A stretch of DNA of 32,298 nt, taken from Desulfurococcales archaeon (lineage in GTDB: Archaea > Thermoproteota > Thermoprotei_A > Sulfolobales > AG1). The notes below the pieces were generated by a model. That model did not search any database and was not told where the DNA came from. It worked only from the letters and a program-made list of their open reading frames with translations. The position numbers and the translations under genes are program-made. Positions 311 through 30,676 of the stretch are shown here, one piece after another. The stretch covers positions 1 to 32,298 of the forward strand of contig WANO01000047.1 of assembly GCA_015521765.1 (NCBI GenBank), in the 5' to 3' direction. Numbering within the stretch: position 1 is the first letter of the stretch; the number at the start of each line of letters is the position of its first letter.

Positions 311-1108
311 GTGTCTGTTTCGCCGCCTAAAATATACTTGCGTGATCTTACCTGGAGGGAGTTTAATGATCTATGCTTAAACACTACTCCATGCATAGCT
401 ATACAACCTACAGGATCTATTGAGCAGCACGGTCTTCATCTACCTCTTGGTACAGATGCCTATATAGCTGAGAAGCTGGCCTATATTTCTGCGCTTGAGG
501 CGTGGAGGAAGGGTTTCAGGGTGCTGGTTAGCGATTCGTTGAGTTTTGGTGTTTCTGAGATGTGGCTTGGTAACCCCGGTACTGTATCGATTAGATTTGA
601 TTCGTATATATCGTTCGTCAGTGATCTTGTGCTGTCTCTCATTGAAACGGGATTTAAATATGTTGTTGTGCTGAATGGCCACGCTGGTAATTCAGATATT
701 CTGAAGGTTGCTCTTCGGAGGGTATCTGGATCTATAGATCCCAGCAGGAGACTCTATCTAGTTAATTGGTGGGAGTTTATCGGCGACGTTATTGATCGCG
801 TGTTCAGCTCGGGATTCTACCATGCAGATGAGGTGGAGACTTCTATTGCCTATGCCCTGGGTTTGGATGTTAGGAAGGATCTAGTTAGATCTGAAGAGAG
901 TAGGAGAAAATATTCGGATAAGTGGCATCCCCTAAAGCAGACAGTTAGGCCCAAAGTATATTTCTACAGCAACGAGGCCCACAGATATACTGTAGGGGCA
1001 TTTGGGGATCCTGGCAGGGGTGATGTTGATAAAGGCAGGATCCTTATCGAATCATTCAAAGCTAGATTTATGGATTTTCTGGATGATATCCTAAATAATA
1101 AGATATAG
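311..1108 (+). CDS. Creatininase-family amidohydrolase
   Basis: This 265-residue protein has the metal-ligand pattern of the creatininase family: GSIEQHG (Glu38, His40), GTD (Asp49), NGHAGN (His124) and HADEVETS (His171 to Glu176). Members hydrolyse cyclic or formyl amides. In archaea the best-studied one is ArfB, which deformylates a pyrimidine intermediate of riboflavin and F420 synthesis, while bacterial ones act on creatinine or in mycofactocin maturation. Length fits the family. The start is GTG with a TATA box about 40 nt upstream. No riboflavin or F420 genes adjoin it, so the exact substrate is not established. Confidence 0.85.
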   Translation: MSVSPPKIYLRDLTWREFNDLCLNTTPCIAIQPTGSIEQHGLHLPLGTDAYIAEKLAYISALEAWRKGFRVLVSDSLSFGVSEMWLGNPGTVSIRFDSYISFVSDLVLSLIETGFKYVVVLNGHAGNSDILKVALRRVSGSIDPSRRLYLVNWWEFIGDVIDRVFSSGFYHADEVETSIAYALGLDVRKDLVRSEESRRKYSDKWHPLKQTVRPKVYFYSNEAHRYTVGAFGDPGRGDVDKGRILIESFKARFMDFLDDILNNKI

Positions 1109-1199
1109 TGTTGAGGCAATCCAATATACCGAAATTTAAATAGCTAGCTACGTTAATTCTTTAGTGGGGGCTATAGATAGCGTAGGTTTCCTATTCTTA

Positions 1200-1254
1200 A
1201 TGATGTATGTGGCGGTCACTGAATAGTTCAGGTGATGACTTAGGAGCCCCCTGA
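1200..1254 (+). ncRNA. C/D box guide sRNA with two 12-nt guides
   Basis: The order of boxes is C (ATGATGT, 1200-1206), a 12-nt guide (1207-1218), D' (CTGA, 1219-1222), a 9-nt spacer, C' (GTGATGA, 1232-1238), a 12-nt guide (1239-1250) and D (CTGA, 1251-1254). Both guides being exactly 12 nt is the hallmark of archaeal 2'-O-methylation guides that assemble with L7Ae, Nop5 and fibrillarin. By the D+5 rule the second guide would methylate the first C in GGGGCTCCTAAG, and the first guide the second C in TGACCGCCACAT. The RNA overlaps, in antisense, the last codons and stop of the minus-strand gene ending at 1240. Only the last base of the C box departs from consensus. Confidence 0.8.
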
Positions 1255-1587
1255 GGCTTTCGCCTCTATATTTTTAAGGGCCTTAATTTTCTGTATTGTT
1301 TTAGGTATCAGCTCACTTAGATCTTTAGCGAACACATAGAGGCCGTTGGGTATGTATTCTGAGGATGCACAGCTGTATGTGTGTATATATTTGCCGTTAA
1401 CCACCTTTATGTAGTATACTGGGATATTTGGATCGTATCTTAAAAAAGCCACGTAGATGTCGTCTTTGTAGTCTATATATATAATTAAGCATCCATCGCC
1501 ATCCTCTAAAGCAACTTTTCTTGCTCCGTGATCTATGAATAGATCTTTAATTCTATCATGTTGTTCTAGCCATGGCTCGCCATTCAT
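1240..1587 (-). CDS. Unrecognised 115-residue protein coupled to the MmgE/PrpD gene
   Basis: I do not recognise the family. It is a small, acidic, mixed alpha/beta protein without membrane segments, cysteine clusters or a signal peptide. Near the N-terminus is HGARKVALEDGDG, followed by alternating hydrophobic strands (LIIYIDY, IYVAFLRY, VYYIKVV) and a C-terminal Lys-rich helix. Its ATG overlaps the TGA of the preceding gene (ATGA), so the two are probably translationally coupled and functionally linked. Its 3' end lies under the C/D sRNA on the other strand. It could be a small partner subunit, but nothing in the sequence proves this. Confidence 0.7.
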   Translation of the reverse strand: MNGEPWLEQHDRIKDLFIDHGARKVALEDGDGCLIIYIDYKDDIYVAFLRYDPNIPVYYIKVVNGKYIHTYSCASSEYIPNGLYVFAKDLSELIPKTIQKIKALKNIEAKASGGS

Positions 1588-2978
1588 TTTCTGATCCTTA
1601 GTAATTCAGTTAGCTTAGATATGCTGTCCAATGTTTCTAGATTCCAGATAATCCTGGTGATCTCTTTAGCATCATTTTCGTCGATCGCATCACCGACACA
1701 CCTATAGAATTTCTGCTCTACATCCTCGCGCTTCATTGGATTCCTGAAGTGGCCTTTTGGATAGGTTACCGTTTCCTCATACATTTCTCCTTCTCTCACG
1801 TATATTCTTATTCTATTGGGTATCCCCTCTGGATAGACTTCATCGAACTGGCTGTTTATCATTACCTTCATCTTCCCCATTATAGATCTAACATCGTCAG
1901 CCAGCACTTTTTCGTCTGAGAACGAGTCTATCCATATATATCCATCTATTAGTGCCCTAGCTACAATATACGGTAAACTATGATCGGCTGTTTCCCTAGT
2001 TTTCGGGTCCCATTTATCAGGATCCTTTACTATAATTTTATAGCTGACGGTGAACGTCTCGATCTCTATCAGCTCGATTTCGGAAAGGGATTTGATTTTC
2101 TCCCTAAGCTTTAGTGCGGCCTCTACAGCAGACATGGCGTGGTACTCAACTGGCCAGTTCTTTATAGAGGTTCTCAAAACCCTAAACTCCTCATTTTTCA
2201 CACCGCCAAAATTCTCTATATCAAAACTTGTTTTCGATATAACGTTGAAGAAGCCGAATTCGCCTTCAAAAACAGGTGATGGGCCAGTTACACCCTCGGA
2301 CGCCAGGAGACTTAAGACAAGACCTTTCATAGATGAGAATGCAGCGGTTGAGCCTTTCCACATGCTTAGGGTTCCTGCTCTTGTTTGCCTTAAAGATACG
2401 CTTTCATTTACGGCTAGATTTATAGCGTTGTATGTTTTCTCTATAGGTAGATCCAGTAGTTTAGATATTCCGGCCGCTGTACCTATAGCTATATAGGTTA
2501 CGTGATCCACGCCTATACTCCTAACCGAGAACGCGTCGCCTAAGCGTGCTGCGATTTCGTATGCTACGGCAATTCCCATAATAAGGTCTTTTCCGTTTAA
2601 GCCGTAATCTTCACCAACAGCGATCAATGCAGGGATCATATCGCTTGGATGCATCGCCTCCTTAGAGAGGTATGTGTCATTGAAGTCTAGATACCTCACC
2701 GCTATCCCGTTAGCCAATGCTGCATAGCTGGGTATGGTCTTTACTCCATCACCCCATATATATGATCCGCTACTCCCGCTCGCTGGTGCCGCTCGCCTAG
2801 CTATTGATCTCGCAGCCTTCACGGGTGGGGCGTTGTATGCGGCTATAGCGACACCTATAGAATCCAGTATTCTTTTTTTAATTTCCTCCCGGGTTTTCTC
2901 ATCTATTAATTCGTATTCCAGCTGATCTATATACGAGGCTATTTTCATCGCAAGATCTTTCTTACTGCTCATAAGCAT
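1584..2978 (-). CDS. MmgE/PrpD family protein (2-methylcitrate dehydratase-like)
   Basis: This 464-residue protein has the all-helical N-terminal pattern of MmgE/PrpD (a KKRILDSIGVAIAAY helix, then SYAALANGIAVRYLDFNDTYL) and the later KNWPVEYHAMSAVEAAL segment. Known members dehydrate 2-methylcitrate, act as cis-aconitate decarboxylase or remain uncharacterised. No prpB or prpC gene is nearby, so a propionate role is not supported by context. Two ATGs compete, at 2978 and at 2972; a TATA-like TATAAAC near 2996 predicts transcription start near 2970, favouring a leaderless message. The stop overlaps the start of the next gene by 4 nt. Confidence 0.85.
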   Translation of the reverse strand: MLMSSKKDLAMKIASYIDQLEYELIDEKTREEIKKRILDSIGVAIAAYNAPPVKAARSIARRAAPASGSSGSYIWGDGVKTIPSYAALANGIAVRYLDFNDTYLSKEAMHPSDMIPALIAVGEDYGLNGKDLIMGIAVAYEIAARLGDAFSVRSIGVDHVTYIAIGTAAGISKLLDLPIEKTYNAINLAVNESVSLRQTRAGTLSMWKGSTAAFSSMKGLVLSLLASEGVTGPSPVFEGEFGFFNVISKTSFDIENFGGVKNEEFRVLRTSIKNWPVEYHAMSAVEAALKLREKIKSLSEIELIEIETFTVSYKIIVKDPDKWDPKTRETADHSLPYIVARALIDGYIWIDSFSDEKVLADDVRSIMGKMKVMINSQFDEVYPEGIPNRIRIYVREGEMYEETVTYPKGHFRNPMKREDVEQKFYRCVGDAIDENDAKEITRIIWNLETLDSISKLTELLRIRK

Positions 2979-29923: not shown

Positions 29924-30655
29924 CTAGATCTCTCTGCTTTCAATACGCTCATTGCCATCTATAACCCAGAACGCTCCATCCTCCCTGATCTCCAGCTTCC
30001 ATATTCCGGTTGTGTGCTTGATTAGATCAACGATCTTCGGCATAGCATTGAAAACCTCTTCTCTACCCCTACCCTGCAGTACAACAATCAGGGCTATATC
30101 GCCAGGAACAAGGTTACCGATCCTGTGATAGATCCTTATACACCCAACACCGTACTCCCTCCATATATCCTTAGCAATCTCAGAGAAACGCCTCAAGGTG
30201 TATTCGCGGTGAACCTCGTATCTAAGCTCTCTAACATCCTTCCCATCTATGGGGCTCTTCACTATCCCTACATATATGTTTAAAGCACCTAGCCCATGGG
30301 TTCTTGCATGGAGCCTAGCGTGATCCACTATCTCCGCTAGATCAATAGTCTTCGACTCCTCAACAAGCTCATACGCCATACAGGGAAGATAGCTATCTAG
30401 CCCCCCTGAGGAGGGGGGAAGAATATCCACAACATCTCCATCGCTCAACCTATGATCCATAGTGGCATATAGCCCATTAACCAGAATAATTAAGCTCCCG
30501 GATCTCTCCCTAATAAACTCCCCAAACCTACCCTTAACGCTGGAAAGCCTCGCTAAAACTTCAGCAACGGTCGCTGTGTCGGGGACCTCTATCTCATCCT
30601 CTCTCTTGCCGTATAGCTCGTGGAGGATAGCGTATAGTCTAACCCTGATCCTCAT
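29924..30655 (-). CDS. Molybdopterin synthase: MoaD-MoaE fusion
   Basis: Residues 1-85 are a ubiquitin-like MoaD domain (VRLYAILHELYGKREDEIEVP, then VDILPPSSGG with Gly84-Gly85). After a short linker (LDSYLPCM), residues about 95-243 are MoaE (YELVEESKTIDLAEI, NIYVGIVKSP, ELRYEVHREYTLRRF, RIYHRIGNLVPGDIALIVVLQGRGREEVFNA, and the catalytic-Lys region KHTTGIWKLEI). MoaE adds two sulfurs to precursor Z, delivered as a MoaD thiocarboxylate on its free C-terminal Gly, so the fusion should need cleavage after Gly85. ATG 30655 is chosen because the TATA box predicts a leaderless start there; TTG 30664 is the longer alternative. Confidence 0.9.
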   Translation of the reverse strand: MRIRVRLYAILHELYGKREDEIEVPDTATVAEVLARLSSVKGRFGEFIRERSGSLIILVNGLYATMDHRLSDGDVVDILPPSSGGLDSYLPCMAYELVEESKTIDLAEIVDHARLHARTHGLGALNIYVGIVKSPIDGKDVRELRYEVHREYTLRRFSEIAKDIWREYGVGCIRIYHRIGNLVPGDIALIVVLQGRGREEVFNAMPKIVDLIKHTTGIWKLEIREDGAFWVIDGNERIESREI

Positions 30656-30676
30656 ACGGCCCAAACCAGGTCTCCA

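Follow-up and report, generated by a model that had tools for sequence, protein, structure and literature searches.

A predicted double-guide C/D box sRNA conserved across an order of heat-loving archaea, with tRNA-Lys C32 as the probable target of its D guide

The closest described systems are the archaeal C/D box sRNAs of Sulfolobales, Desulfurococcales and Pyrobaculum (PMC4644070, PMC7994747), which resemble the RNA considered here in their boxes, 12-nt guides and short D'-C' spacer, and also in a variable genomic context, occasional overlap with the ends of ORFs, and tRNA as a minority target. Targeting of tRNA is an established minority use of these RNAs (PMC7994747). In Pyrobaculum, tRNA targets account for 16% of guides, and one targeting guide can be combined with one that has no target (PMC7994747), which is the pattern seen in the sRNA at 1200-1254. 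For tRNA-Trp(CCA) of P. furiosus, C/D-guided modification of C32 was predicted, and mass spectrometry did not detect Cm32 (PMC7668247). In Sulfolobus acidocaldarius tRNA, Cm32 is made by a protein enzyme, aTrmJ (PMC5372725, PMC5372735), which would leave the same mark as that predicted here but is a stand-alone SPOUT protein rather than an RNA-guided enzyme. Among Rfam families, the best sub-threshold match at the site in a permissive search was sR23 (RF01138), which scored 18.1 bits (E 0.011) where its gathering score is 45. The first guide of sR23, AUCUGGAGCCCC, is followed by CUGA and has GGAGCCCC-CUGA in common with the D guide of our locus; it complements GGGGCUCCAGA, presumably the kind of sequence expected in the anticodon arm of tRNA-Trp(CCA). 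In contrast with our locus, the anticodon part of sR23 is CCA where ours reads YYU, and its other guide is unrelated.

The locus lies on the plus strand at 1200-1254 of the window, by which we mean the whole 32,298-nt stretch of DNA that was analysed, and comprises 55 bases with the gapless layout ATGATGT-12 nt-CTGA-9 nt-GTGATGA-12 nt-CTGA. The initial annotation had described C, D', C' and D boxes with two 12-nt guides and a 9-nt spacer, and all of these are present as read. The features of the sRNA and its surroundings are as follows.

1130..1143, plus strand: CGAAATTTAAATAG, possible BRE/TATA-like element, read from the sequence
1200..1206, plus strand: C box ATGATGT, consensus RUGAUGA, from the sequence
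1207..1218, plus strand: D' guide ATGTGGCGGTCA, 12 nt, from the sequence
1219..1222, plus strand: D' box CTGA, from the sequence; CTGA, CGGA, CAGA or CCGA in relatives
1223..1231, plus strand: D'-C' spacer ATAGTTCAG, 9 nt, from the sequence; variable in relatives
1232..1238, plus strand: C' box GTGATGA, from the sequence and the homologue alignment
1239..1250, plus strand: D guide CTTAGGAGCCCC, 12 nt, from the sequence; predicted Cm32 guide for tRNA-Lys
1251..1254, plus strand: D box CTGA, from the sequence and the homologue alignment
1240..1587, minus strand: 115-aa ORF whose 3' end lies antisense to the D guide and D box, its stop TAA falling within the D guide
1584-2978, minus strand: PrpD-like gene, overlapping the ORF at 1240-1587 by 4 nt

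The last base of box C is the sole departure from RUGAUGA, and columns T2, G3, A4 and G6 of this box are invariant across 32 homologues that were retrieved with a pattern that did not include box C. A scan of both strands of the 32-kb window for four boxes with 12/12-nt guides and a spacer of 3-12 nt returned 1200-1254 as the sole site with no more than two box mismatches. The same four-box layout was absent from all 60 versions of the window randomised with a first-order Markov model, bearing out the earlier expectation that chance agreement would be small. The stretch has the characteristics of archaeal C/D box sRNAs, namely boxes C and D near the ends, internal D' and C' boxes separated by a short spacer, guides that are 10-12 nt long in the class (12 nt each here) and directly precede D' and D, and conservation. 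No Rfam family reached its gathering threshold anywhere in the window, and phage and plasmid collections held no match to the sRNA. The proposal of an unannotated archaeal C/D box guide RNA is thus upheld in that the layout is confirmed and is absent from Rfam at the gathering threshold. Judged on its sequence, 1200-1254 is almost certainly a canonical double-guide archaeal C/D box sRNA. It appears to be a real, selected RNA and an ordinary member of the known class, albeit one with no Rfam family, because its boxes and both guides are conserved while the spacer and flanks change. As for its class in general, the sRNA would be transcribed from the plus strand and fold into a C/D k-turn and a C'/D' k-loop that bind L7Ae, Nop5 and fibrillarin, and the assembled RNP would present the two 12-nt guides.

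Conservation was assessed in three ways. A blastn search with window 1150-1300 against 59 related genomes gave matches in 15, the window's own genome included. Except in the window genome and its congener, these matches cover approximately window 1199-1259 only and the flanks do not align, a confinement to the sRNA that is stronger evidence than the chance figure. A pattern scan of a public genome collection returned 35 stretches. Two of them, in Hecatella (L072) and Cellulomonas (L078), have no boxes and were rejected as chance; the other 33 are real, and their MAGs carry the labels Desulfurococcales, Desulfurococcaceae, Sulfolobales, Pyrodictiaceae, Thermoprotei, Thermoproteota or Zestosphaera. 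A profile built from 32 sequences detected homologues in 102 of the 214 genomes of the order and in 59 of its 118 good ones. Some of the guide conservation seen in the homologue alignment is a product of the retrieval pattern, on which the blastn and profile matches did not rest in the same manner. Homologues sit in unrelated genomic contexts. Their spacers span 3-9 nt in the alignment and are longer in some families, and the 12-nt guides are kept, except for some D guides of other lengths. The initial annotation had looked to box conservation in relatives, and boxes and guides are indeed kept in the homologues; the sRNA is conserved across an order of heat-loving archaea. Rfam matches of distant homologues were rejected as family identities, since they are due to common boxes. 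Among the open article texts searched, no published guide pair has these sequences, and the papers listed for the guide letters were all unrelated; the family may already have been numbered as an sR in lists for Ignicoccus or Sulfolobus.

Comparison with the congener (G001) revealed a single difference among the 55 bases of the sRNA, located in the spacer, along with several differences and a 12-bp indel in the upstream flank. The possible BRE/TATA-like element CGAAATTTAAATAG lies approximately 57 nt upstream of box C and is also found in the congener, where it adjoins the indel. Over window 1100-1160, this indel duplicates the ATTTAAATAG element upstream of the congener sRNA (L059), possibly representing a duplicated TATA-like promoter element. 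A stem of at least 4 bp just outside boxes C and D was found in 18 of 33 homologues by a generous offset rule without a null, such stems being frequent but not universal in the class; beside the near-identical congener copy, it amounts to only 2 bp.

The initial annotation assigned the D guide to methylation of C32 in tRNA-Arg(CCU). Our screen of the window genome, in which 32 tRNA genes were identified, agrees on C32, which falls at N+5, but the preferred tRNA is tRNA-Lys(CUU) (G000:C15:15213-15311, arm CGGGCTCTTAAC). The D guide is predicted to pair with its anticodon arm at 29-GGGCUCUUAA-38, forming 10 contiguous pairs from N+2 to N+11 with one G:U and a duplex energy of -16.6 kcal/mol. C32 would face the guide nucleotide five positions upstream of box D (N+5) and be converted to Cm32 by fibrillarin. 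With tRNA-Lys(UUU), the duplex contains two G:U pairs and reaches -13.9 kcal/mol, consistent with a weaker second target. Shuffled guides equalled the tRNA-Lys(CUU) score in 9 of 400 cases against the tRNAs of the window genome and in 3 of 400 against those of G044 with the spliced tRNA-Lys(CUU) added; these tests are moderately strong, leave out a match to a tRNA-His intron, and are uncorrected for the parallel screening of rRNA and other RNAs. Because of the G:U pair, the longest uninterrupted Watson-Crick run with tRNA-Lys(CUU) is six pairs, where Dennis et al. required nine for rRNA targets (PMC4644070).

The core of the D guide, AGGAGCC, is kept with few exceptions in families f1, f2, f4-f8 and f10. 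It reads G30-U36 of the Lys arm and persists in f5 to f8 despite drift in the length of the D guide. In L057 and L082, which have a 13-nt D guide, and in the f8 copies, which have a longer D-proximal tail, extra bases precede box D, and N+5 would consequently shift away from C32. The best explanation of the locus is a double-guide sRNA whose D guide would direct Cm32 formation in tRNA-Lys(CUU), to which we assign a probability of about 0.6; Cm32 of tRNA-Lys is likewise the most likely product of the D guide, at somewhat better than even odds.

Of the 214 genomes of the order, 200 carry a TrmJ-type gene, among them all 118 good ones, so absence of TrmJ was rejected as an explanation for the guide. 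Given that TrmJ is near-universal, a C32 guide could be redundant. Archaea are known to combine guide and enzyme routes, sometimes with overlapping site specificity (PMC5372725), and since both routes can coexist, the presence of TrmJ weakens, but does not exclude, the prediction of a Cm32 guide.

The strongest duplex of all in the window genome (-19.3 kcal/mol) is formed with a tRNA-His intron, where a 10-nt stretch, GGGCTCCTAA, is perfectly complementary to the D guide in G000, G001 and G005. The complement is contained in an intron after position 37 of the tRNA-His genes L091 (G000:C48, about 2012-2117), L092 and L093. This pre-tRNA intron was rejected as a general target, as tRNA-His of G044 has no intron. 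As a side observation, a tRNA-Trp(CCA) gene of G044 (L180, G044:C1:350502-350613) contains a long intron with C/D-like boxes (ATGATAG ... GTGAGAG), possibly a known type of intronic guide.

An sRNA of the same class could instead have C32 of tRNA-Arg(CCU) as the main target of its D guide, and this is the best of the alternatives, yet an unlikely one. In the spliced tRNA, positions 32-39 (CUCCUAAG) are an exact complement of the guide stretch CUUAGGAG; C32 again falls at N+5, G29 and G30 also pair, and the duplex energy is -14.1 kcal/mol. However, C31 opposes guide C4, directly beside the target nucleotide, in all of the tRNA-Arg(CCU) genes examined, from the window genome and relatives (L103, L105, L107, L111, L112 and L116), guide C4 is nearly invariant where a true Arg guide should have G, and tRNA-Lys(CUU) is better by 2.5 kcal/mol. 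The initial annotation placed GGGGCTCCTAA in tRNA-Arg(CCU). While the C32 position stands, the gene of the window genome (L103) reads CGGCCTCCTAA, with CGGC-CTCCTAA and not GGGG-CTCCTAA, and the predicted 11-nt match breaks because C31 mismatches the guide. This mismatch disfavours tRNA-Arg(CCU/UCU).

Slightly less probable still is a D guide directed at 23S rRNA, within the stretch AAGGCCCCTAAG at about position 1155 in G044. Of the 10 core pairs, 8 are Watson-Crick in G044 and 9 in G005, both genomes conserve the site, and N+5 is a C, but an A6-C mismatch adjoins the target nucleotide in all members with both sides conserved, the duplex (-13.0 kcal/mol) is weaker than that with tRNA-Lys(CUU), and no convincing D' site lies nearby. 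Exact complements of either guide were absent from 16S and 23S rRNA. In G044, two 23S sites separated by 27 nt would suit a double guide and were rejected, as both fall in variable 23S sequence, and a search for GACCGCCACA across G008, a complete genome in whose assembly no rRNA was found, returned the sRNA itself only.

Turning to the other half of the predicted tRNA-Lys guide RNA, the D' core TGTGGYGGNC is kept in nearly all families with the RNA, including those in which the D guide has changed. No good site for the D' guide was found in 16S or 23S rRNA, 5S rRNA, RNase P RNA or SRP RNA. As candidate targets, 5S rRNA (which bears Cm in Sulfolobales and Pyrodictium) and RNase P RNA were rejected, as was SRP RNA, where the match is not conserved. 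The initial annotation had also proposed TGACCGCCACAT as an rRNA or tRNA site; this was not borne out, as no structured RNA examined contains an exact complement of the D' guide. The best match in mature tRNAs, nine Watson-Crick pairs plus two G:U with C63-C74 of the tRNA-Gly acceptor, is not convincing because 23 of 400 and 35 of 400 shuffled guides reach its score. The D' half looks to be a conserved orphan guide under selection as strong as that on the D guide. As a separate observation, guide swapping is seen at L260-L275, where f11 and genus g5 of f3 keep the D' half but carry unrelated sequences in place of the D guide; the f11 matches come mostly from complete or near-complete genomes of 1.5-2.8 Mb, presumably Sulfolobaceae.

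It is improbable that the sRNA acts mainly as an RNA chaperone or bridge on tRNA precursors, with the D guide on the anticodon arm and the D' guide on the 3' end. The sequence TGTGGYGG is complementary to C71 C72 R73 CCA followed by CA of the trailer, so that contiguous pairs with the 3' ends of the genes number nine for tRNA-Lys(UUU) and tRNA-Arg(CCG) and eight for tRNA-Lys(CUU) and tRNA-Arg(CCU). At guide position 6 there is a C or T, which suits pairing with R73. Against this, only about six of the pairs remain in mature tRNA, CCACA trailers are common generally in these tRNA genes, D' guide position 3 varies within one genus, and the shuffles that equal the tRNA-Gly acceptor score apply here as well. 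The complementarity to the CCA end is suggestive and may be chance. Even less probable is a combined scheme in which a degenerate, G:U-tolerant D guide would serve C32 of YUU and YCU tRNAs (Lys and, more weakly, Arg) while the order-conserved D' guide would contact the CCA end of the same pre-tRNAs, making the RNP a tRNA-folding or quality-control bridge besides or instead of a methylation guide. Independently of the sRNA, tRNA genes of the order are often directly followed by CCACA (CCA + CA), at a glance above expectation.

We also considered the minus-strand ORF at 1240-1587. As initially described, the D guide and D box cover its last codons and stop in antisense, an arrangement through which the sRNA could regulate the ORF in cis. 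Neither Pfam nor NCBIfam contains a match to the ORF, which differs from its congener counterpart by five nonsynonymous and six synonymous codon changes. Among the 33 homologous loci, those outside the genus show no homologue of the ORF next to the sRNA. At 30 of these loci, no ORF of at least 90 aa lies over the sRNA; the congener locus L059 is counted among the 30, and there the same overlapping ORF is present but cut by the contig end. The guides are kept in species without such an ORF, and 3' overlaps with ORFs occur in about 25% of C/D sRNAs, with neutral or slightly negative effects on reporters (PMC7994747). The suggested interference between sRNA and mRNA is not supported, as 30 of 33 relatives have the sRNA in a different context; cis-antisense regulation is very unlikely, and the overlap is best read as lineage-specific and incidental. 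Elsewhere in the window, a single ORF at 29924-30664 on the minus strand carries ThiS/MoaD-like and MoaE domains, by its domains a fusion of the two molybdopterin synthase subunits. Lastly, that the locus is a chance resemblance and the RNA is not made is scarcely credible given its order-wide conservation with drifting flanks and its absence from the randomised windows.

With the sRNA at 1200-1254, a group whose small RNAs are under-annotated would gain a conserved family that appears to be uncatalogued, together with a conserved orphan D' guide (TGTGGYGGNC) that accounts for half of its guide capacity. Through its D guide, a guide-directed mark is predicted at a tRNA position usually credited to TrmJ, and redundancy between guide and enzyme at C32 is testable.
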